From Mucilaginibacter sp. (GTDB taxonomy: Bacteria > Bacteroidota > Bacteroidia > Sphingobacteriales > Sphingobacteriaceae), in NCBI RefSeq assembly GCF_028288205.1, contig NZ_JAQBOD010000057.1, forward strand, positions 1 through 64,000: a stretch of DNA of 64,000 bases, written 5' to 3'. The translations under genes were made by a program, and so were the position numbers. Each line of letters opens with the position of its first letter. Positions within the stretch are counted from its first letter, which is position 1. This document shows positions 20,130 through 50,274 of this stretch, piece after piece. The notes beneath the pieces are model-generated. The model worked only from the letters and a program-made list of their open reading frames with translations. It was not told the origin of the DNA and did no database searches.

Positions 20130-21428
20130 TTAATTGGCAACTTTTCTCAGTTGACCATCATCAGTGAACACTATCCCTTTTACCCGTGCCAGGGTCTTAC
20201 TGATCTTATTTTTTTTCACTTTCGCATATCGCTGGGTAGTCCTGGTGGTATTATGCCCGAGCATCTTGCTTACTTCCTCCAACGAAAATTCCATAATATT
20301 CAACATTATATCGGCAAACGTATGCCTTGCCAAATGCGTGTTTAACTCCCGGTTTATTCCACAAATTACCGCAAGCTCCTTAAGGAACCCGTTGTACTTT
20401 GCATTTGTATTTACAGGTATCAGCAGCCCGTTTTCCTTCCGGCAAGGATGATCTTTGTACTTCTTAATAAGCTCATTTATAATAGGGAGTATTGGAACCA
20501 TTTCACTTACTCCTGTTTTTCCCCTGTCCTTGACCAGCCAGCATTCTCCGGTTATACCCACTTTAACAATATTTTCAGTTGTTAAAGCATAAACATCTTG
20601 AAAGGCGAAACCAGTAAAGCATTGAAATATAAATGCATCACGGACCTCTACTAATCTTTGGATTCTTATTTCCTTAGACCAGATCTGCTCTACCTCAAAG
20701 TATTCTAATGGCGGTACGTCCTTCTCATCACCACCACATTTAAATTTAATGATAGGATTCTTTATTATCCAATTATTCGTTTCTGCGACAGTCAGAATCT
20801 CTTTTAAATTTTTAACCTGCTTTTTTGCCGCTGCCTCCCCAAGTACCTTCTCACGGTCTACGGTCAGATAATTATAAAATTGGACTGCAAACGAATATTC
20901 TATTGAAGCAAGATCAATATCCTTTAATTTAAACTTGATATTCAAAAATTCTTCGATCTTTTTCCTGGTGGCCTTCCATTGTCTTAAGGTTTCCGGAGAG
21001 CGAAGCTTTTTCTCAACCATCTTTTTAAAGTTTGCGACGTGCAAATCGGAAACTTGTAGTAGGGAAGGAACGACTTTGAATACCGGTTTTAGTGCGCCTT
21101 TAATTAAGTTAGGTGGTAGTCCATTGTATACATTTTTGATCATAAGCGGTGTTATGTGCTCGTAACCTGCTTGTAATACAACAAACTCTCTAAAGAGATC
21201 AACAGTAATCTCACTAATTTTGAGGTTTACTTTTTTGCCATGGCTGCCGCCTTTAGCCTTTTTGTTTTCGCCGTCCCAATCGTTGAGATGGACTTTCATA
21301 CCGATGGCAAGTTCCTCTGAAACTTCGCCTTCAATACTGATTCTGCAAATTACAGGCGCATTTCCTTTAGCGTCTGCTTTTGATTTACGGTGCCAAAATA
21401 ACACCGACATTTTTTGATGATTTCTCAT
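20130..21428 (-). CDS. Tyrosine recombinase (site-specific integrase)
   Basis: A 432-residue Bacteroidota-type phage/ICE integrase. The N-terminal arm-binding domain (VLFWHRKSKADAKGNAPVICRI) is followed by a SAM-like core-binding domain (about residues 130-225) and the catalytic domain. Visible catalytic parts are HLARHTFA (H-x-x-R) and LGHNTTRTTQRYAKV with the tyrosine. The first arginine region reads TGFAFQDVY, as in many Bacteroidota relatives. It lies 278 bases from the 3' end of tRNA-Lys, which is the probable attachment site. A strong terminator follows it. Confidence 0.93.
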   Translation of the reverse strand: MRNHQKMSVLFWHRKSKADAKGNAPVICRISIEGEVSEELAIGMKVHLNDWDGENKKAKGGSHGKKVNLKISEITVDLFREFVVLQAGYEHITPLMIKNVYNGLPPNLIKGALKPVFKVVPSLLQVSDLHVANFKKMVEKKLRSPETLRQWKATRKKIEEFLNIKFKLKDIDLASIEYSFAVQFYNYLTVDREKVLGEAAAKKQVKNLKEILTVAETNNWIIKNPIIKFKCGGDEKDVPPLEYFEVEQIWSKEIRIQRLVEVRDAFIFQCFTGFAFQDVYALTTENIVKVGITGECWLVKDRGKTGVSEMVPILPIINELIKKYKDHPCRKENGLLIPVNTNAKYNGFLKELAVICGINRELNTHLARHTFADIMLNIMEFSLEEVSKMLGHNTTRTTQRYAKVKKNKISKTLARVKGIVFTDDGQLRKVAN

Positions 21429-25266: not shown

Positions 25267-26208
25267 ATGTTAAAAGACAATAAGATTGTAAGTATTCAAT
25301 ATTTAAGAGGATTAGCTGCATTGGGTGTTGTTTTCTGTCATTATGGATTGTTTAACGCAGGTCAATTAGGTGTATTCGTTTTCTTTTTTATAAGTGGTTT
25401 TATTATTGTTTATTCCTTAGCTAAATCCGATTACAAGCCCCGACAATTTTTAAAATTCTTACTGAAAAGGTCGATAAGAATTGACCCTGCATATTTTGGC
25501 GCTATTTTATTAACCTGCCTTTTTTTCATAACTCTTTCGTATATTCCATCATTCAGGGGCAAACCATTTGTTTTCATACCTAATCAACTCATAGCTCATG
25601 TGTTTTACATTGTCCCTTTTACAAAATATCAGTTCTACAACAGTGTGTTTTGGACGCTTTGTGTAGAGTTTCAATTCTATCTCATCATTGGTATTCTATA
25701 TTTTATTTCAAATAGTCCTTTATATAAAATCATCTTTCTTTTAGCTTTTAGCTCGACTTGTTTTATTCCATTTTCAAATTCATACTTCCTTGTTTTTACC
25801 TATGCTCCTATATTCGCTTTAGGAATTTCACTTATTGATTTTTATCAAGTCAGGCGTCCTGTCTACATTGTATTACCAATTTTACTAATCGGCCTAGTGC
25901 TATACAAATTCGGGTTAACCATTTCTATTTTACTCGTCATTAGCAGTTTAATAGTTTTGTATTTTAAACTGGTAATTAAACAGCTATCCTTTTTAGGAGA
26001 TATATCATATTCACTTTATTTAATCCATCCATTAGTCCTTTTTACTATTTTAGGCATACTCAAAAAGCTTCATATTAATATCACTACAAACCGATATTTA
26101 TGGGTGTTCTGTGAAATTGTTATAGCCATATGCGTTGCTTATCTTTTTTATATTTTAATTGAAAAACCATCTCAAAAGTTATCTAAGCGCATTAATATCA
26201 AGGGTTAG
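25267..26208 (+). CDS. Acyltransferase family 3 (O-antigen/surface acetylase type) carried by the prophage
   Basis: About 313 residues from the ATG at 25,267. It has around ten transmembrane helices and the family start IQYLRGLAALGVVFCHYG with the key histidine. LKRSIRIDPAYF matches the R-x-x-R-I-x-P segment, and FWTLCVEFQFYLI and SYSLYLIHPL follow. It acetylates surface polysaccharide from the cytoplasmic membrane. It is on the opposite strand to the late operon and converges on the receptor-type tail gene with an 11-base overlap. This is the classic position and type of a seroconversion gene that blocks superinfection. Confidence 0.88.
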   Translation: MLKDNKIVSIQYLRGLAALGVVFCHYGLFNAGQLGVFVFFFISGFIIVYSLAKSDYKPRQFLKFLLKRSIRIDPAYFGAILLTCLFFITLSYIPSFRGKPFVFIPNQLIAHVFYIVPFTKYQFYNSVFWTLCVEFQFYLIIGILYFISNSPLYKIIFLLAFSSTCFIPFSNSYFLVFTYAPIFALGISLIDFYQVRRPVYIVLPILLIGLVLYKFGLTISILLVISSLIVLYFKLVIKQLSFLGDISYSLYLIHPLVLFTILGILKKLHINITTNRYLWVFCEIVIAICVAYLFYILIEKPSQKLSKRINIKG

Positions 26209-36384: not shown

Positions 36385-38643
36385 TTAAAGATTAACCCTA
36401 TTAACCGTCTGCGCCAATATATTTTGCTGACTGTTAATGTCTTTCACATCAACATAAACAGGGGGGAAGTTATTAATCATCTGGTAAGCTATGGTATTGG
36501 CCAGGTCCTTTTGGTCATTCATGGGTTGGTTGTAGTAGCGGTTAGAGTTACCGCCGTCTGTAAATATACCGCCGATGGCATAACCACGACCGGGATTAGT
36601 TATCGAAAAATCCCGACCGCCATGTGCCACATTAATGGCACTAACCAAATTACGCGCCCAGGGGTTACGCATTGCTTCTGATACTACTACGGCCTCGCCC
36701 GAACGCAGATAAGCATTGGTATTATCCGTACGGCTATAACCTGATAGGAGCGTGCCTTTACCATCCGATTGGTAATGCAAACCACCTTTAGCATACTGTG
36801 GTGTTTTCTGCGCGGCTATGGTAGCTACTTGTATAGCGGTTTCGGCAATAATTGCCGGGATGGTGAAAGCAGCAAAGACACCTGTTTGAGCGGTAACTTT
36901 AGTAACTGCCAGTGCGCCGTTTATAACAGCCTGCAATATAGATGCCTTTTGCTCTGCCTTAAATGCTTTTACTTTTTCGGCGGCTTCCTTTTTTTTGTAT
37001 TTATCCTCTATAGCCTGTTTTTGCGATGCGGTTAAGCTGCTGTTATTCAGCTCGGCCTGTTTTTGGGTTTCCAGCTGTTTTATTTTGGCATCGCTTTGCG
37101 ATTTGATGTTGTTTTGCAGGATGGAGAATGCCGCGTTTGAAACTTGCTGGGCAGTTTGCAGTTCGAAATCTTTGCGTTGCTGTGCAAATTGTTTATCGGC
37201 AGCGGCCATTTCCTGCTGGTATTTTTGCCTGATATCCGCGGTATCTTTGCCAGCCTCGGCAGCTTTTTGTATTTCGAAGTTGTATTTATCGGTTATAAGT
37301 TGCTTTTCGGTAGCGAGCTTGTTAGCAGGTAAAATAGCTTTATCAACATCATGCTGATCTTTGCTTAATTGTTGTGTTTCAACCAGGTCTTTTTGATGCT
37401 GTAATGCCTGAGCCAGGTCCTGATCATTAAATATTTTTATTGCCGTCTTAATACCTTCGTGGTATTTGTCTTGCCGTTCTGTGCTAAACACTTCATATTC
37501 GGCCTGTGTAATTTGTTTTTTGGCTAATTGATCTTTAAAGTCTTTAAGTTCTGCTTCGTGATAGTTTTTAGCAATGGCAGCTTGTTTTGCAAATTTGTCG
37601 GCCATATCCTGTAATGCCGTGGAGTTTCCTCTGGACGATGCCCCATTATTGTTTGTAACAATTTTCCCATTAAAAAAATCATATCCGCTTTTATTGCTTA
37701 TTTCAGCTGCGTCCGACTCAAATTTTGTTGCAATAGTTATTAAAGCGTTCTTTTGGTTAGTGGCATCCGTTATTGCCTCTTCACGTCTTTTTTTCGCTGT
37801 ATTTATCTTATCCACCTCCGCGTTGGCATCCATGAAGCCGGCGGGACTGTTAACTACAGAGAGCGCCCCGCGTCTCATAAAATCTTTTGTCTTGTCCCAA
37901 AATGTTAAAACATCATCGTCAGATTTTAATTTAGTTTGTTCGGCTTCATAGGCTTTCTTTGCCGCATCCTGTAGGGCTAACTGCGCAGATGCTTTTAATA
38001 ATGTCATTTTTATATACGACGCCCCGTTTTTAGTAACTTTACTTTCAAGGTCATTAAAATTTGATACCTGGCCCATTGTTTTACCCACAGTAGTATTGTA
38101 CTGCTCTAACACTTCCTTTTTGTCTAAAAATCCTTTTCGGGTCAAGCCAATATTTATTTTTAATTCATTGATCTGTTTTACTGCATTAGAATAATCGCTG
38201 CTTTGTAAAGCGCCATTCATGGCATTGATGCTTAGTTTGGCTTTATCAACAGCCTCTTTGCCATTTGTTAACGATTTTATAAATTCAAGAGCTTGCGGCC
38301 CGAAAGCCAGTAATACCGTTAACCCACCTGTTAAAGCTGCTTCTAATGATATAGTTCCTTTGGTTAAAAATTCTATAGCCGTGGTGAAAGCCTTTACTAT
38401 AGGTGCAGCATCTTCGGAAGTTTTTTTAATTTTTGTCAAAGTATCATTAACCGGGTCACTTTCTGACTTAAGCTTACCAACAGATTCGCTAAGCTTTGAT
38501 ACATCATCGTCAAGCTTCGTTATAGGCAAAGAAAGGTTTGTTATTGATGCCCGTAAACCGTCAAAGGCAGCTTTATACTGATTTATTTGTTGTTGACCAT
38601 TTGCATTAATGTCAACATTAATTGAAAAATTATTATCTGCCAT
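36385..38643 (-). CDS. Tail tape measure protein (intact copy)
   Basis: A 752-residue protein. Start MADNNFSINVDINANGQQQINQYKAAFDGL, long coiled-coil stretches rich in Ala, Lys and Gln (about residues 100-560), a hydrophobic segment near 590-620 (KASILQAVINGALAVTKVTAQTGVFAAFTIPAIIAETAIQVA) and a C-terminal segment YAKGGLHYQSDGKGTLLSGYSRTDNTNAYLRSGEAVVVSE seen in other Bacteroidota tape measures. It sets tail length and helps DNA injection. Decayed copies of its two ends lie upstream at 39,927-40,076 and 40,388-40,533. Confidence 0.9.
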   Translation of the reverse strand: MADNNFSINVDINANGQQQINQYKAAFDGLRASITNLSLPITKLDDDVSKLSESVGKLKSESDPVNDTLTKIKKTSEDAAPIVKAFTTAIEFLTKGTISLEAALTGGLTVLLAFGPQALEFIKSLTNGKEAVDKAKLSINAMNGALQSSDYSNAVKQINELKINIGLTRKGFLDKKEVLEQYNTTVGKTMGQVSNFNDLESKVTKNGASYIKMTLLKASAQLALQDAAKKAYEAEQTKLKSDDDVLTFWDKTKDFMRRGALSVVNSPAGFMDANAEVDKINTAKKRREEAITDATNQKNALITIATKFESDAAEISNKSGYDFFNGKIVTNNNGASSRGNSTALQDMADKFAKQAAIAKNYHEAELKDFKDQLAKKQITQAEYEVFSTERQDKYHEGIKTAIKIFNDQDLAQALQHQKDLVETQQLSKDQHDVDKAILPANKLATEKQLITDKYNFEIQKAAEAGKDTADIRQKYQQEMAAADKQFAQQRKDFELQTAQQVSNAAFSILQNNIKSQSDAKIKQLETQKQAELNNSSLTASQKQAIEDKYKKKEAAEKVKAFKAEQKASILQAVINGALAVTKVTAQTGVFAAFTIPAIIAETAIQVATIAAQKTPQYAKGGLHYQSDGKGTLLSGYSRTDNTNAYLRSGEAVVVSEAMRNPWARNLVSAINVAHGGRDFSITNPGRGYAIGGIFTDGGNSNRYYNQPMNDQKDLANTIAYQMINNFPPVYVDVKDINSQQNILAQTVNRVNL

Positions 38644-38736: not shown

Positions 38737-39102
38737 ATGAAAGCATTTTTCTTCTCAATTTTATTATTTGCTTCCTTTAATTGTTTTGCACAAAATCCAA
38801 TAAATCAGGATTCTCTTAAAAAAGCCTATTTAATTAAGGCCCATGAAACACCTGAATACAAGGAAGCAGTGGATGATATAAACCAAGTAAAAAAAAATAT
38901 AGAATTGCAAAAAACAGGTATTTTAACAGCTGCAGATGTTGTTAAAGATTATAATATCAGATTGGGTAGCCATTTGGGTAAAAAACAAACATTAAAAGAC
39001 GTTGAATTACGAATTAATAGTGAAGGTGAAAAATATCCTCAATACGTACTCTTACTTGCGGCTGCCAGATTAGCTAAAGAAGACGCAAATAAACAAGAGT
39101 AG
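38737..39102 (+). CDS. Small secreted protein inserted in the tail operon
   Basis: A 121-residue protein with a clear signal peptide (residues 1-18, ending NCFAQ). The mature part is helical and charged (EYKEAVDDINQVKKNIELQKTGILTAADVVKDYNIRLG). No recognised family. It is on the strand opposite to the late operon, just upstream of the tape measure start, so it is cargo (a moron) likely expressed from its own promoter in the lysogen. Confidence 0.55.
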   Translation: MKAFFFSILLFASFNCFAQNPINQDSLKKAYLIKAHETPEYKEAVDDINQVKKNIELQKTGILTAADVVKDYNIRLGSHLGKKQTLKDVELRINSEGEKYPQYVLLLAAARLAKEDANKQE

Positions 39103-39166: not shown

Positions 39167-39754
39167 TCAAATCGTTTTTGTCTTTTTTATATCAGTTATA
39201 TTAAAATCAAATACTGGATTATTGAGTGTTTCTTCCTTGTCAATAGAACCGATATTAAACGACTCAAATTTGATATTATCTTCAGCGTCCTTCTCTGTTG
39301 AAAATTTGCCATTAACCAATACTTTATCACCAGCCTGCAACGGTTTTAACATATTTTTGATCTTGTCGTTATCAAAAATATGCGCCTTCAAAATTATAGC
39401 ATTGTATTGCGGGTATTTTTCGTCAAACTGCATTCCCTTTGATATTCTTAGCGTGACATCAATCGCGCCATCTAAAGCATCAACATCAAGTGCATGAATT
39501 ACTGCCTGCCAATTTTCAGCTTTTGCATTTTTATTAATGAAATGAGTTATTTTAACCATGCTGGTATCAAAAACATCCTTCTTATTTATTTCATTATGTT
39601 GAGCCTTGTATACAGAATCAGCATCAACTAAAACCTTTATAAATGTCAGTTCTTGCGCAGGTCTATTGTCTTTTTGTTCAGAAGATGGTTGTCGATCGCA
39701 GCTATATAGCGTAATCATTATAATCGGGAAAAAAAAATAAGATAATTTTTTCAT
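39167..39754 (-). CDS. Putative lipoprotein with OB-fold-like core
   Basis: A 195-residue protein. The signal with lipobox is KLSYFFFPIIMITLYSC (Cys near residue 19). The core (WQAVIHALDVDALDGAIDVTLRISKGMQF... LKPLQAGDKVLVNGKF) resembles the tRNA_anti-like OB-fold proteins of Bacteroidota, but only weakly. Cargo gene between the tail operon and the tape measure. Function unknown; envelope location is the only firm point. Confidence 0.55.
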   Translation of the reverse strand: MKKLSYFFFPIIMITLYSCDRQPSSEQKDNRPAQELTFIKVLVDADSVYKAQHNEINKKDVFDTSMVKITHFINKNAKAENWQAVIHALDVDALDGAIDVTLRISKGMQFDEKYPQYNAIILKAHIFDNDKIKNMLKPLQAGDKVLVNGKFSTEKDAEDNIKFESFNIGSIDKEETLNNPVFDFNITDIKKTKTI

Positions 39755-39926
39755 AATGACAAGTTAGGTTTTGCTAATTTTATTGGTAAATATAATTGTA
39801 TTTTAATTAAGCTGCAAGAGGTTTTTTTTAAATCAAAATTTAAATATCGAATCTGATAATTGTCATTTAATAATTTATTTTCTACCTCAGTTATTTTACT
39901 AAGCGCTGCTTTTGCTTTTGTAGTAT

Positions 39927-40076
39927 CTATTCACTATTAAGCGTGTTTATCGGGATTGACAAATTAGATATACTTGTCCTTAAACCATCAAAGGCACTTT
40001 TATATTGATTGAGTTGTTGTTGCCCATCGGCATTGATTTCCACATTTATGGAGATATTTTCATTATTATTTGCCAT
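39927..40076 (-). pseudogene. Tape measure 5' fragment (first 49 residues, decayed)
   Basis: An ATG-started 49-residue frame that aligns to the N-terminus of the intact tape measure: MANNNENISINVEINADGQQQ against MADNNFSINVDINANGQQQ, then LNQYKSAFDGLRTSISNLSIPI, about two thirds identical by eye. It ends in TAG after TLNSE. Further coiled-coil-like sequence in another frame follows leftwards, so it is the start of a lost second tape measure. Confidence 0.8.
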
Positions 40077-40118
40077 TTTTATTTATTAATAAATCTTATT
40101 AAATTTTACTTATTATAT

Positions 40119-40382
40119 ATGAAAATCTTAAAATCAAAAAGTGGAATTGGTCATTCGAGGTTGACAGAGTATGTGATTGATAACCAGATTGCAAGAGAGG
40201 ATATTTTTACGATCACATTAGATGGACAAGGCCCCCTGGAAAAGTTTACAATTTTTTACTATGCAGAGCCAAAACCAGAATCAGAAAAAAAGGTTTTTGG
40301 GGTTAAAGTCATATTTTATAATTGTGACAAGTTGAAAACTTATCACAATTATGGACTAAGTTACGCTGCCGCTAAACTTTAA
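40119..40382 (+). CDS. 87-residue hypothetical cargo protein
   Basis: Translation from the ATG at 40,119 gives an 87-residue protein (MKILKSKSGIGHSRLTEYVIDN...). An upstream in-frame start at 40,005 would run antisense through the tape-measure fragment and is rejected. It is alpha/beta-like with no known motif. It lies between two tape-measure fragments on the opposite strand, so it is probably inserted cargo. Confidence 0.5.
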   Translation: MKILKSKSGIGHSRLTEYVIDNQIAREDIFTITLDGQGPLEKFTIFYYAEPKPESEKKVFGVKVIFYNCDKLKTYHNYGLSYAAAKL

Positions 40383-40387
40383 TCAGT

Positions 40388-40533
40388 GCGGTTACGCGCC
40401 AACGGGTTACACATAGCCTCTGATACACCACAGCCTCGCTCGAGCGCAGGTAGGCATTGGTATTATCGGTACGGCTATAACCGGATAGCAGCGCGCCTTT
40501 ACCGTCAGAATGATAATGCAAACCGCCTTTGAG
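40388..40533 (-). pseudogene. Tape measure 3' fragment with frameshift
   Basis: Directly after the stop codon of the tail gene. Reading leftwards it codes KGGLHYHSDGKGALLSGYS and RTDNTNAYLRSSEAVV, nearly identical to the C-terminal part of the intact tape measure. A one-base shift follows, after which VSEAMCNPLARN can be read in another frame. It is a decayed end of a third tape-measure copy. Confidence 0.82.
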
Positions 40534-42573
40534 TTACCCCAACTTTACCAACTCCACCTTAGTAGGCTGTCCTTTGCGCCATGCATCAATTTTATTAATA
40601 TAATAATAGGCGCTATCCTGCTCCAGGTAAACGGGTATTAACAGGTCAAGCTCCAGTATATCTCGCGGGGCGAGTAGAAAATAACGTACCACCTTTTTGG
40701 TTTGCTTTAATATTTTCTCCAGTTCGGGGTAATATTTTGTTTTTAAGCCAGCCAGGGGCTTGCCCGAAATAGTGCCTGGCATATCGCCAAAACAAAGATT
40801 ATAATCACCATTGGGCTTGTAAAAATAGGGCGCGCTTATAATGTCATTCACTGCTATATTGGTACTGCCATCTGTAAATATTACGGTTTTGCCCAGGTTA
40901 TTTATATTAAGTTTATGGTCTATCAAAATCCGTGGTGAAACACCAACGCTAAAATCCGTACTGCTGCTACTGCCATCAATCATTTTTATTTGAGCAACAG
41001 TGCCGCCAATATAGGGCCGGTTAAGAGTGGGCGCAAATTGGCTCTCAAATAAGTCGGCAGCTGTGGCAGATAAGGTGGCATCGGCCACATTAATTACCGC
41101 ATCGGCAAAACCTGCAGGTAAAATAGCGTCGTCCGGCTTATATTTCATGTTATTTACTTGTGCATATCCGCCTAATTGAAAGTTAATGGTTTTACCCTGG
41201 TCCAAACATTTTTTGGTCCATTTTTTAGCTATGGGGATATTATTCACAATGTCATGAAAGGAGGTGAATGATATTGTTTTGTTTGCATTATCTGTTTGGC
41301 ATACTATTCCAAATCTTTGCAGTGTATCTTTCAACAGGTCCTTTTGCGAAATATTAGGGAAAATACGCTCGCATTGCACGGTTTGGCTATATTTAACAGC
41401 CTGGTTTTGTGCCTGTATATTAAATGTAGCACCCGGATAAATTCTGAAATTTGATGGATTATCGCCAAACCAGGTGTAATTTATTTCAACGCTTTGCCCG
41501 GCTGCCAGTTCGGTTTGACAGGATAACGTTTGCTTGAAAATATCAATATTACCGGTAATACTGCCGCCACTCGTTCCGTTGTCCCTCGTCCATGTGCCCA
41601 TATCCCAGGTAAAATCTATTTCTGCCGGGTAAATGTCAGGCAAACCAGGTGTATGAATAGTTATTGTAACATGTAAATAGGTGGGGTGTTTACCCGTAAT
41701 TTTACCATGCATATAAACGTGTGGGAAGCTAACAGTTATATTATAATCACTTCTTTGCTTAGCCGTAAATATTCCTGCGCTTATTTGGTTCGACAGATCA
41801 GAAATAGGATCTAAAACAAACCTGCCTGCCGGGTTATTATTATTGGGGTGATTGAGTTGTATGGTTGTTCCATTAGATGCTGTACTACTTAAAATATCCG
41901 GCTGGTTTTGATAGTCGCTGCCATGTTCCCATGAACCATTACTAAATTGTGCGATAAGCAATGGATACAAAGGATCTTTAAGTAAAGATCCGGTTGCTTT
42001 ATAGCCGGTGCTTTTTACCAACAGGTCAATAGCCGTTTTTATAAAAAAGCCGGGCCGCATAGTTGTTACATTAATAGATTGCGAATAGTCTTCGGTAAAA
42101 TTGCCATAATCTATTACCGGGTATATCCATCCTTCGGTTTTGGTTTGTGAGTGTGCAACATTATCTATATTCCAGGCGTGGTCGTAAGGCTTCCAAACCA
42201 GGCTTTTTCCGAAATTGCTCCATTGGCTTTTGGTATCGCCCATATCATATAGTTTACCATCAATAGCATCAAAAAAATCAACATTGCCTGATAGAATGGT
42301 TATGCTGGCTGTATCCTGCTCAATGCTGTTTAACTCGCCGATGCCATAAGGGATTATCTCCAAGCCATCCTGCACCAGCTTTGCATCATATTTGGTATAA
42401 GGCGAATCTGTACAAAAAGCGATATCATCCGGAAAACCAAGTATCCGCCTGTTGCGCTGTGTTAGCGGCAGTTTAAACTGGTTGGATGTATTTCCCTGCT
42501 GATTTTGCACCTCGGCCAGATTATTGATCTGGAAGGTTAAGGCAATTGGGCTGTCATCACTCAAATCCACCAA
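40534..42573 (-). CDS. Tail/baseplate protein (679 residues)
   Basis: A large structural protein. The first part (LVDLSDDSPIALTFQINNLAEVQNQQGNTSNQFKLP) matches the N-terminus of Bacteroidota phage tail proteins, where a strand runs into a P-L-T-x-R-N-R-R motif. It ends LIPVYLEQDSAYYYINKIDAWRKGQPTKVELVKLG. The only in-frame start visible is TTG at 42,573, but homology-like sequence (EQYSIIYNDQ) continues upstream. The better ATG at 42,605, seven bases after the previous stop, is one base out of frame. A lost base near 42,600 is likely. Confidence 0.72.
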   Translation of the reverse strand: MVDLSDDSPIALTFQINNLAEVQNQQGNTSNQFKLPLTQRNRRILGFPDDIAFCTDSPYTKYDAKLVQDGLEIIPYGIGELNSIEQDTASITILSGNVDFFDAIDGKLYDMGDTKSQWSNFGKSLVWKPYDHAWNIDNVAHSQTKTEGWIYPVIDYGNFTEDYSQSINVTTMRPGFFIKTAIDLLVKSTGYKATGSLLKDPLYPLLIAQFSNGSWEHGSDYQNQPDILSSTASNGTTIQLNHPNNNNPAGRFVLDPISDLSNQISAGIFTAKQRSDYNITVSFPHVYMHGKITGKHPTYLHVTITIHTPGLPDIYPAEIDFTWDMGTWTRDNGTSGGSITGNIDIFKQTLSCQTELAAGQSVEINYTWFGDNPSNFRIYPGATFNIQAQNQAVKYSQTVQCERIFPNISQKDLLKDTLQRFGIVCQTDNANKTISFTSFHDIVNNIPIAKKWTKKCLDQGKTINFQLGGYAQVNNMKYKPDDAILPAGFADAVINVADATLSATAADLFESQFAPTLNRPYIGGTVAQIKMIDGSSSSTDFSVGVSPRILIDHKLNINNLGKTVIFTDGSTNIAVNDIISAPYFYKPNGDYNLCFGDMPGTISGKPLAGLKTKYYPELEKILKQTKKVVRYFLLAPRDILELDLLIPVYLEQDSAYYYINKIDAWRKGQPTKVELVKLG

Positions 42574-47995: not shown

Positions 47996-48547
47996 ATGAA
48001 TTTTTTAAGGTTTACCTTATTTATCTTGCTTCTTTCGGGGGTAATTATCTCCTGCCAGAAAGATCAGGCTGTTGATCTAAATCTTAAATCAAAAAGTAAA
48101 ACTGATTCTGTTAACGCTTCAGGTAACATATTGGCCACCCGAGGTACGCTGCAAGTTTCTGTAAATGATTCTATATATACTTTTGATGCCACTAAAGACT
48201 CTATCGCTTTTATTAATTTAAACATCGACAGCAATAAATATTTTGGCATTACTGCTATTAATAAGGCACATACCATGAGTTTTGGTATTAGTTCATCAGG
48301 CTCTGCAGCTTCTGATTTGACAAGACCTATTGCCGGCGGCCAATTATTATTTAGTGCCGATAATAAAAGCGGGATGCAATACACACTGACTAAAAATTCT
48401 GAAACGCAAAATAAAATAGACTTGTTGCAATACATGCAAGACAGTGTACTAACTAAAGGTTCTTTCTTTATACTTATGGCTAAAGATGGAAAGCCAAATT
48501 CACCTACTTATAAAGTCCGCGGTAATTTTGATCTTCGTATAAAATAA
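47996..48547 (+). CDS. Lipoprotein inserted at the head of the late operon
   Basis: A 183-residue protein with a lipoprotein signal (LFILLLSGVIISC, Cys about residue 20). The rest is beta-rich and Ser/Thr-rich (RGTLQVSVNDSIYTFDATKDSIAFINLNIDSNKYFGITAIN). It reads in the opposite direction to the structural genes and is bounded by 238- and 83-base gaps. Probable lysogenic cargo at the cell surface. No family recognised. Confidence 0.65.
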   Translation: MNFLRFTLFILLLSGVIISCQKDQAVDLNLKSKSKTDSVNASGNILATRGTLQVSVNDSIYTFDATKDSIAFINLNIDSNKYFGITAINKAHTMSFGISSSGSAASDLTRPIAGGQLLFSADNKSGMQYTLTKNSETQNKIDLLQYMQDSVLTKGSFFILMAKDGKPNSPTYKVRGNFDLRIK

Positions 48548-49581: not shown

Positions 49582-50274
49582 ATGGAATTTCCCGAAAAAA
49601 CTAATAAAATAAAAACGGTTCGCCCTGAAACGCTGGAGTTTATTATTTTATATAACCAATTAAAAGGAAAAGCTTTTAGCGGCAACGCGCAATTGGCCGA
49701 GGTACTTGGCTTTAATTCTGCCAGTTCTATTACTGAGATCATTAAAAGCCGGCAAAATATTGATCCGGAAAAATTCAATATTTTTAAAGAAAAATACAAA
49801 GATTTCCTGGATGGTAAAAAATATACAGAATTTACCCAGGTATCTAAAGTTGCAGAGGGGATACCGATGTATGAAATAACGGCTACGGCATCTGGGGTAG
49901 AGGTATACAATGATATAAATGATACTCATCCGGTTGGTCGCATGAATTTTCCGGGTATTGAGGATTGCGACTTTGCTTTGCCGGTTTGGGGGCATTCTAT
50001 GTATCCTTATTTAGAAAATGGCTGCTGGGTGGCGTTAAAAGTTATACACGATAAGAAAATTTTACCGGGCGAAGTTTATTATATTGAGTGGGGCGAATAC
50101 CGTATGTATAAAAGGCTTTTAGCCGGCGATAATAATGATGAGGTTATAGCTCATTCTGATAACACTACAGAAATGATTGGCAATCATCTTAAATATGCTC
50201 CATTTGTTATTAAAATAGCCGATATTAAAAAGCTTTGCCTGGTTAAGGATATTCATAAAAAGCATAATCATTAA
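49582..50274 (+). CDS. S24/LexA-like prophage repressor
   Basis: About 230 residues from the ATG at 49,582. The N-terminal half holds an Xre-like helix-turn-helix (SGNAQLAEVLGFNSASSITEIIKSRQNI). The C-terminal half is an S24 autoprotease: the nucleophile serine in VWGHSMYPYLENG and the lysine in YRMYKRLLAG. In relatives, DNA damage triggers self-cleavage and induction. The next gene starts on its last base. Confidence 0.88.
   Translation: MEFPEKTNKIKTVRPETLEFIILYNQLKGKAFSGNAQLAEVLGFNSASSITEIIKSRQNIDPEKFNIFKEKYKDFLDGKKYTEFTQVSKVAEGIPMYEITATASGVEVYNDINDTHPVGRMNFPGIEDCDFALPVWGHSMYPYLENGCWVALKVIHDKKILPGEVYYIEWGEYRMYKRLLAGDNNDEVIAHSDNTTEMIGNHLKYAPFVIKIADIKKLCLVKDIHKKHNH

Follow-up and report, generated by a model that had tools for sequence, protein, structure and literature searches.

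Stubs of probably replaced tape measure genes in a cargo hotspot of a Mucilaginibacter prophage family

Morons are extra genes with a promoter of their own that lie between other phage genes. In the orphan modules of Rhs and CdiA, an incoming module takes the place of part of a gene whose other end is conserved, and an orphan piece stays behind. Ltp of the Streptococcus thermophilus phage TP-J34 is described in passages of PMC3952083 as a prophage-encoded exported lipoprotein that blocks DNA injection via the incoming tape measure (TMP), while passages of PMC10883804 present HK97 gp15 and P22 SieA as inner-membrane exclusion proteins acting on genome entry and report that gp15 is evaded by HK97 hybrids with different tail tube and TMP genes. 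SNIPE, also an inner-membrane protein, associates with the TMP, and sensitivity depends on a region of the TMP (passages of PMC13190303). Tai proteins differ in that they target tail assembly and do not work as exclusion proteins (passages of PMC11364771). TMPs evolve through duplication and loss of pieces (abstract of PMC3271669), and TMP-related effectors of contractile injection systems can be platforms with exchangeable domains (abstract of PMC13277306). In the titles and abstract openings of the open-licence PMC papers that literature searches listed, neither stranded TMP ends nor a secreted TMP domain was reported.

The window, the 64,000-nt stretch of DNA analyzed here, belongs to contig 7 (114.7 kb) of a 3.9-Mb assembly and carries a prophage in the chromosome of a soil bacterium of the genus Mucilaginibacter. 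In addition to the genes listed in Table 1, it encodes a Clp-like protease, the large terminase, and a lysozyme. Matching prophages in named genomes were all from Mucilaginibacter (M. gossypii Gh-67 and M. lappiensis ATCC BAA-1855 among them), except for some records whose only label is Bacteroidetes MAG, and a TMP relative is present in 88 of 149 Mucilaginibacter genomes. A profile of 67 TMPs revealed that the N-terminal part of the window's TMP is variable and its C-terminal part strongly conserved; among these 67 proteins, pairwise identity is 14–33% over the first 350 residues and 79–89% over the last ~125. Elsewhere in the window, an Acyltransferase_3 gene (25267–26208, plus strand; Pfam E 2.1e-16) adjoins the tail-end genes on the other strand and is possibly surface-modifying cargo, and a gene for a 183-aa lipoprotein-like protein without a Pfam match (47996–48547, plus strand) lies beside the small terminase-side genes.

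Table 1. Features of the window and their positions
Feature	Position (nt)	Strand	Basis or remark
Integrase	20,130–21,428
S24-type repressor-like gene	49,582–50,274
Intact tape measure gene (TMP), 752 aa	36,385–38,643	-	PHROG 18891, tail length tape measure, E 1.8e-5
TMP segment homologous to the secreted-type protein of 38,737	37,954–38,247	-	Profile A5 without TMP rows, E 1.4e-22; alignment
121-aa protein with signal-peptide-like start and one TMP-like domain	38,737–39,102	+	Best read as phage-borne member of stand-alone family
Lipoprotein-type cargo of 195 aa from family F2; predicted fold OB-like (weak matches)	39,167–39,754	-	pLDDT 83.3; best Foldseek E 1.5e-3
Cargo promoter-like motif TTTACCAATAAAATTAGCAAA, perfect copy	39,770–39,790	-	Upstream of the window's lipoprotein gene
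Third TMP remnant, out of frame with the N-piece and behind the N-copy	39,850–39,930	-	Codons ~223–249 of a G353/L062-like TMP
N-terminal TMP remnant (N-piece), 49 codons, then in-frame TAG	39,927–40,076	-	Similarity to own TMP
87-aa antisense ORF, family F1	40,120–40,382	+	F1 membership
C-terminal TMP remnant (C-piece), residues ~619–665, frameshifted	40,388–40,533	-	Starts 3 nt after the tail-gene stop
679-aa tail gene, hotspot border	40,534–42,573	-	Relatives immediately precede the TMP interval in 74 of 84 TMP loci

The original prediction had read two segments between the tail gene and the TMP as decayed TMP pieces, the C-terminal one lying upstream of the N-terminal one and the intact gene following. 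Alignment to the intact gene was significant for both pieces at the DNA and the protein level, and the order along transcription on the minus strand (tail gene, C-piece, N-piece, intact TMP) confirmed two remnants in reversed order. The C-piece (40,392–40,530) shares 119 of 140 nt with the DNA of the window's own TMP (85%, E 1e-40) and matches the TMP of a related prophage, L062, at 87% over 140 nt; as protein, it corresponds to residues 619–662 of the own TMP (40,399–40,530, 75%, 69.7 bits), with a frame change of 1 nt within it. The N-piece (39,975–40,089) shares 90 of 118 nt with the own TMP (76%, E 6e-20), a match that takes in 13 nt 5' of the start codon; its protein matches residues 1–47 of the own TMP (39,930–40,076, 67.8 bits), and its amino acid identity is 74% to the TMP of L088 versus 67% to the own TMP. 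The third remnant matches the TMP of the sister prophage in genome G353 (L062) at 87.5% over 80 nt (78% at the amino acid level, tblastn E 2e-6), while a tblastn search with the window's own TMP gave no match to it. Because this piece matches a foreign TMP and not the resident one, the lost N-plus-middle copy was of a different TMP type. The predicted loss of at least two copies also fits: at least two joining events in the window most simply account for the C-piece and the N-plus-middle piece, any order of their crossovers being putative.

When the whole assembly was queried with TMP DNA (E ≤ 0.001), only the intact gene and the C-piece were found; with the TMP protein as query, the gene at 38,737 and the N-piece came up as well. 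When the interval was shuffled 200 times with dinucleotides preserved and searched with the own TMP protein, the best score was 22.7 bits, far below those of the two pieces, which rules out chance similarity. An assembly artefact is unlikely given the length of the contig and the recurrence of such stubs in many genomes.

We surveyed 94 loci, namely the window and 93 relatives (L033–L125). Left out were ten loci without a TMP by the criteria used, ten without the tail gene upstream, and L037 and L039, which repeat the prophages of L061 and L099, so that 72 loci remained; a further 48 loci, largely from the same contigs, were kept out of the 72-locus counts. Across loci, the interval between the tail gene and the TMP ranges from −8 to 4,480 nt and is −8 to 83 nt in L038, L114, L116, L119, and L103. 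Full-length TMPs were then compared with six kinds of interval by tblastn (E ≤ 1e-4). In the tail gene–TMP interval, there were 35 sense-strand matches to TMP, distributed over 17 of the 72 loci, whereas the five control kinds of interval (121.6 kb) yielded zero TMP fragments. Most of these matches (26 of 35) start within 15 residues of the TMP start, and several of the others continue one stub. The single antisense match was the window's 121-aa gene. A C-terminal piece was found only in the window among the 72 loci, an internal piece lies directly behind the tail gene in L088, and multiple separate stubs per locus are common (e.g., L050, L065, and L106). Twenty of the 26 N-terminal stubs best match the TMP of another phage and six that of their own, and only 8 of the 26 have at least 100 nt of upstream synteny to an intact TMP.

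The view of this interval as a landing site for cargo was borne out, as 61 of the 72 loci hold a cargo gene of a recurrent family there. The original prediction would have fallen if related prophages had one normal TMP and identical cargo elsewhere; 55 of the 72 loci indeed have one normal TMP and no detected fragment, but their cargo is in the same interval and not elsewhere. Stub-bearing loci are richer in cargo (2.1 versus 1.3 genes of at least 100 aa; Mann–Whitney p 0.004), which supports module exchange only weakly, because longer intervals give room for both stubs and cargo. We also considered whether the hotspot is a general scrapyard of structural genes. This was rejected: seven other structural genes, searched in like manner, gave one fragment there, the tail-gene 3' end in L056, and 13 raw matches in the other intervals.

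Junctions were compared in ten pairs of loci. In five of them (L044/L061, L045/L075, L060/L066, L066/L067, and L070/L092), identity ends no more than 30 nt from the tail-gene end and resumes at TMP residues ~360–560, which gives the boundaries of a cassette; in the first four of these pairs, the flanks are 89–96% identical. The other five pairs break deeper in the interval or show no break there (L120/L121). Between the window and L062, identity is 93% as far as the first part of the tail gene and 95% beyond p98, whereas the stretch between these points differs. Displaced modules were found in two loci. In L063, the cargo of L069 together with TMP residues 1–62 (84.7% over 939 columns) precedes a short repeat. 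Beyond it come cargo and a TMP N-terminal part that are both new, and then a TMP 3' part that is 92% identical to that of L069. L049 likewise holds the module of L050 as a stub, with 746 nt upstream of the stub matching at 79.7%. These alignments show what looks like a new module of cargo and TMP landing behind the 5' end of an old TMP.

Several repeats were observed in these loci. A G+C-rich repeat occurs in the hotspot at L041:8397, 8505, and 8893, L042:10381, L063:9148, and L069:9901 (oriented coordinates); these six copies in 4 of the 72 loci all lie inside the hotspot, one of them exactly at a stub end (L063), and the repeat may be relevant in its lineage but not in general. A long array of a 7-nt tandem repeat lies between the TMP and the next gene in L066 (12506–13160), and the contig end of L067 falls inside the same repeat.

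Local copies occur as well. In L109, a 279-nt TMP 5' end is doubled at 97% and flanks a stretch of cargo on either side. In L077 (G346), which represents a distant lineage, a ~1.1-kb unit of a TMP 3' end and a secreted gene stands in tandem, with three TMP ends in total that are 95% alike over 300 nt; such tandem copying in relatives agrees with the original prediction. In that stretch (L077:1587–5323, G346:C128), genes for ~160-aa secreted proteins alternate with near-identical TMP 3' ends downstream of the TMP, an arrangement that mirrors the hotspot; similarly, in L079 (9558–11530; G180:C8), an 89-aa ORF for a TMP C-terminus is followed by two secreted-type genes.

Taken together, these comparisons suggest that the fragments are probably stubs of replaced TMP genes in a moron hotspot of this prophage family. 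The hotspot between the 679-aa tail gene and the TMP collects genes for mostly exported proteins, and new modules of cargo and TMP would enter through recombination. At the right junction, identity would resume within the conserved 3' part of the TMP. A left junction at the tail-gene end would produce a clean swap, while one inside the resident TMP would strand its 5' end and its cargo upstream, where the stranded part would decay via deletion and frameshift. Unequal joining within one phage would give local tandem copies, and all of this could be one process, in which unequal or illegitimate joining copies a cargo gene and the adjoining TMP end within or between phages. Odd pseudogene scraps would thereby become a readable record of module exchange, the stubs logging which tape measures a phage lineage has had.

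The original prediction had instead proposed that the phage's own TMP was duplicated in tandem and that the copies then decayed and took up cargo, an interpretation that is partly supported. The copies in L109 and L077, the tail-gene 3' scrap that lies upstream of a TMP N-terminal copy in L056, and the six stubs that best match their own TMP all speak for it. However, the decay of duplicates would leave 5' and 3' pieces alike; with 26 of 35 matches starting at the TMP start, duplication is not supported as the general rule. The last ~125 residues are by far the best conserved, so 3' pieces should be the easiest to detect, yet only the window has one. Moreover, given that 20 of the 26 N-terminal stubs and the window's third piece match foreign TMPs, most stubs are better read as replaced foreign modules, and the displaced modules in L063 and L049 argue in the same direction. 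We thus consider duplication of the own TMP unlikely as the origin of the fragments.

For the window itself, a single broken extra copy whose ends were permuted by a rearrangement around the antisense gene at 40,120 would account for the fact that only a C-piece and an N-plus-middle piece are left, and the C-terminal part is too conserved to tell the TMP type. It nevertheless requires a rearrangement, of which no trace was noticed, and related loci often hold several independent stubs each, which makes this reading quite improbable. Even less probable, in our view, is that the N-terminal stubs are functional short proteins, e.g., dominant-negative exclusion factors. Some are open frames with a start codon (308 aa in L056, 244 aa in L065, 175 aa in L078, and 126 aa in L050), but they differ in length and share no end point, the stub in the window reaches a stop after 49 codons and continues out of frame, and the copy in L109 has an in-frame stop that the intact gene lacks. 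Replacement of TMP genes by incoming modules thus remains the preferred reading of the stubs.

We also asked how closely cargo and TMP travel together. Over 1,830 pairs of 61 loci, cargo was correlated with the TMP N-terminal part given the tail gene (partial r 0.21, p 0.001), with the TMP C-terminal part given the N-terminal part (partial r 0.22, p 0.001), and with the tail gene given the N-terminal part (partial r 0.14, p 0.007). In some pairs, such as L066/L068, the N-terminal part is in common and the cargo differs. A tight linkage between cargo and TMP was rejected, since the association is only modest.

The intervals contain 173 non-stub ORFs, which fall into seven families of at least two members and 23 singletons; some of the short ones are perhaps not genes. 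By a simple rule for a hydrophobic N-terminus, rather than a dedicated signal-peptide predictor, most cargo proteins with 100 aa or more (86 of 108) are of exported or membrane type, compared with 10 of 448 structural proteins. The commonest family, F0 (60 members in 34 loci), consists of proteins of ~197 aa with a hydrophobic N-terminal segment; its confident model (e.g., L141:5691–6314, plus strand; pLDDT 89) had no PDB match below E 0.2 in Foldseek, and it is possibly a new fold. F1 comprises 40 tiny ORFs in 25 of the 72 loci, all antisense; as a constant partner of TMP starts it is a weak candidate, being found at 11 of 66 TMPs and 6 of 26 N-terminal stubs. F2 has 19 members in 17 of the 72 loci. 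Its 195-aa representative in the window has only weak OB-like matches, mostly SSB-like in a viral library, and a match to PHROG 8066, to which that database assigns no function, at E 6.6e-5, which is sub-threshold or generic. F3 and F4 look secreted, and the TPR model matches of one F5 protein are likewise sub-threshold or generic. Searches of Pfam, PHROGs, PADLOC, and NCBIfam gave no clear family assignment for the cargo tested.

Many cargo genes, of families unrelated to each other, are preceded by a common motif, TTTACCAATAAAATTAGCAAA. With up to 4 mismatches allowed, the hotspots (112 kb) hold 75 copies in sense and 2 in antisense orientation, and the other 855 kb hold 12; in the window's assembly, there is one perfect copy and one further place with 2 mismatches. 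The gene after the motif belongs to F0 (44 copies), F2 (13), F3 (9), F4 (3), the TMP (4), or a singleton (2), and TTTG stands 27–28 nt upstream of the motif in 47 of the 75 copies. Motif and TTTG fit the −33/−7 promoter of Bacteroidota, and their role as a promoter is putative. The motif also lies ~600 nt upstream of the large terminase in 8 of the 72 loci, and none was seen (up to 4 mismatches) upstream of the window genes at 38,737 and 40,120.

One of the three cargo genes interposed in the window, that at 38,737, is itself a TMP relative. The 121-aa protein is homologous to TMP residues ~133–230, matching residues 145–230 of its own TMP at E 2.8e-10 and residues 137–238 of the L061 TMP at E 6e-16. 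Profile A5, built from this protein and five stand-alone homologues without any TMP row, matched in 20 of 149 Mucilaginibacter genomes. The domain lies in TMP-sized or TMP-part frames in 12 genomes (best E 3.6e-24) and in short stand-alone frames in 7, the window's genome being in both groups; G355 has a broken stand-alone copy, and a weak match in a 433-aa frame of G365 (E 5.5e-4) is in neither group. In a 300-genome sample of the order, a second profile that includes two TMP rows detected the domain in 7 genomes from other genera, in frames of 543–1,331 aa, and gave weak matches in two shorter frames. Inspection by eye of the flanks of the stand-alone copies L080–L085 revealed no obvious phage genes. 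A tree of 30 domains, with labels by frame length, has one branch that splits 8 stand-alone from 22 TMP copies (support 83/87, not starred), and by this split the gene is best taken as a member of the stand-alone family that is carried by a phage. A fresh copy of the neighboring TMP is not supported, as the gene groups with the stand-alone proteins. A stand-alone relative matched PADLOC PDC-M59C at E 0.0028, which is sub-threshold or generic. From these sequences one may speculate, with considerable doubt, that this protein and its chromosomal relatives are secreted decoys that would jam an incoming TMP in the periplasm, by co-assembly or by occupying its partner. If so, modules of TMP ends and cargo would form a self-renewing site of an arms race, in which an exclusion factor travels with the TMP of its own phage. 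The protein offers a direct test of whether an exported fragment of the injection machinery can block injection.

What the cargo does is suggested mainly by analogy. Since known exclusion and defence proteins act on the TMP or on TMP-guided entry, exclusion is our leading guess for the exported cargo, and there is nearly an even chance that at least part of it serves superinfection exclusion at this step. Such a function would explain why cargo travels beside the TMP, and escape from exclusion is a likely reason for swapping TMP N-terminal parts. It is also possible, though short of an even chance, that the cargo is unrelated to exclusion and serves lysogenic conversion for host surface or stress traits, the TMP being a tolerated insertion site. 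This alternative agrees with the lack of a clear defence family match in PADLOC, and with the TPR matches in one family and the OB-like fold in another; on the other hand, five other structural intervals are without TMP fragments, one cargo protein carries a TMP domain, and the known exclusion proteins that act on TMP-guided entry, as described in the passages cited above, are exported or membrane proteins. Relatives show that the hotspot keeps acquiring modules of a cargo gene plus a TMP gene, possibly for the exclusion of rival viruses, and the cargo between the stubs is a compact collection of candidate superinfection-exclusion genes in a genus of Bacteroidota.

Compared with the TMP-targeting exclusion proteins, the cargo shares the exported or membrane type by the simple rule given above, and it would at most work like them rather than be one of them: for the proteins tested, neither Pfam, PHROGs, PADLOC, and NCBIfam nor Foldseek gave a match to known exclusion relatives by sequence or fold. 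As with Ltp, the proteins are prophage-encoded and of exported type, their activity here being a candidate one; TMP remnants are not mentioned in the Ltp passages and gene tables of PMC3952083. HK97 gp15, SieA, and SNIPE differ in that no family relation to the cargo was found, and SNIPE is a nuclease. The units described in the abstracts of PMC3271669 and PMC13277306 lie inside one TMP or are effector domains, unlike TMP ends stranded in a cargo hotspot. The locus also resembles morons: variable cargo with a common promoter-like motif lies between conserved structural genes, its G+C content is lower (33.5% versus 43.8% in the tail gene), and it is nearly absent from the five loci with intervals below 100 nt, in which the genes that elsewhere stand up to 4,480 nt apart adjoin (−8 to 83 nt). 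The hotspot differs from morons in that its cargo is interleaved with stranded TMP ends. The locus further resembles the Rhs/CdiA orphan modules, in which a conserved part is likewise kept and a variable part displaced beside it (L063/L069, L049/L050, and the conservation profile). The arrangement is, however, a mirror image, with a conserved C-terminal part and orphan N-terminal parts upstream, and the gene is a tape measure and not a polymorphic toxin with an immunity gene, so that the locus works like such a system but is not one.
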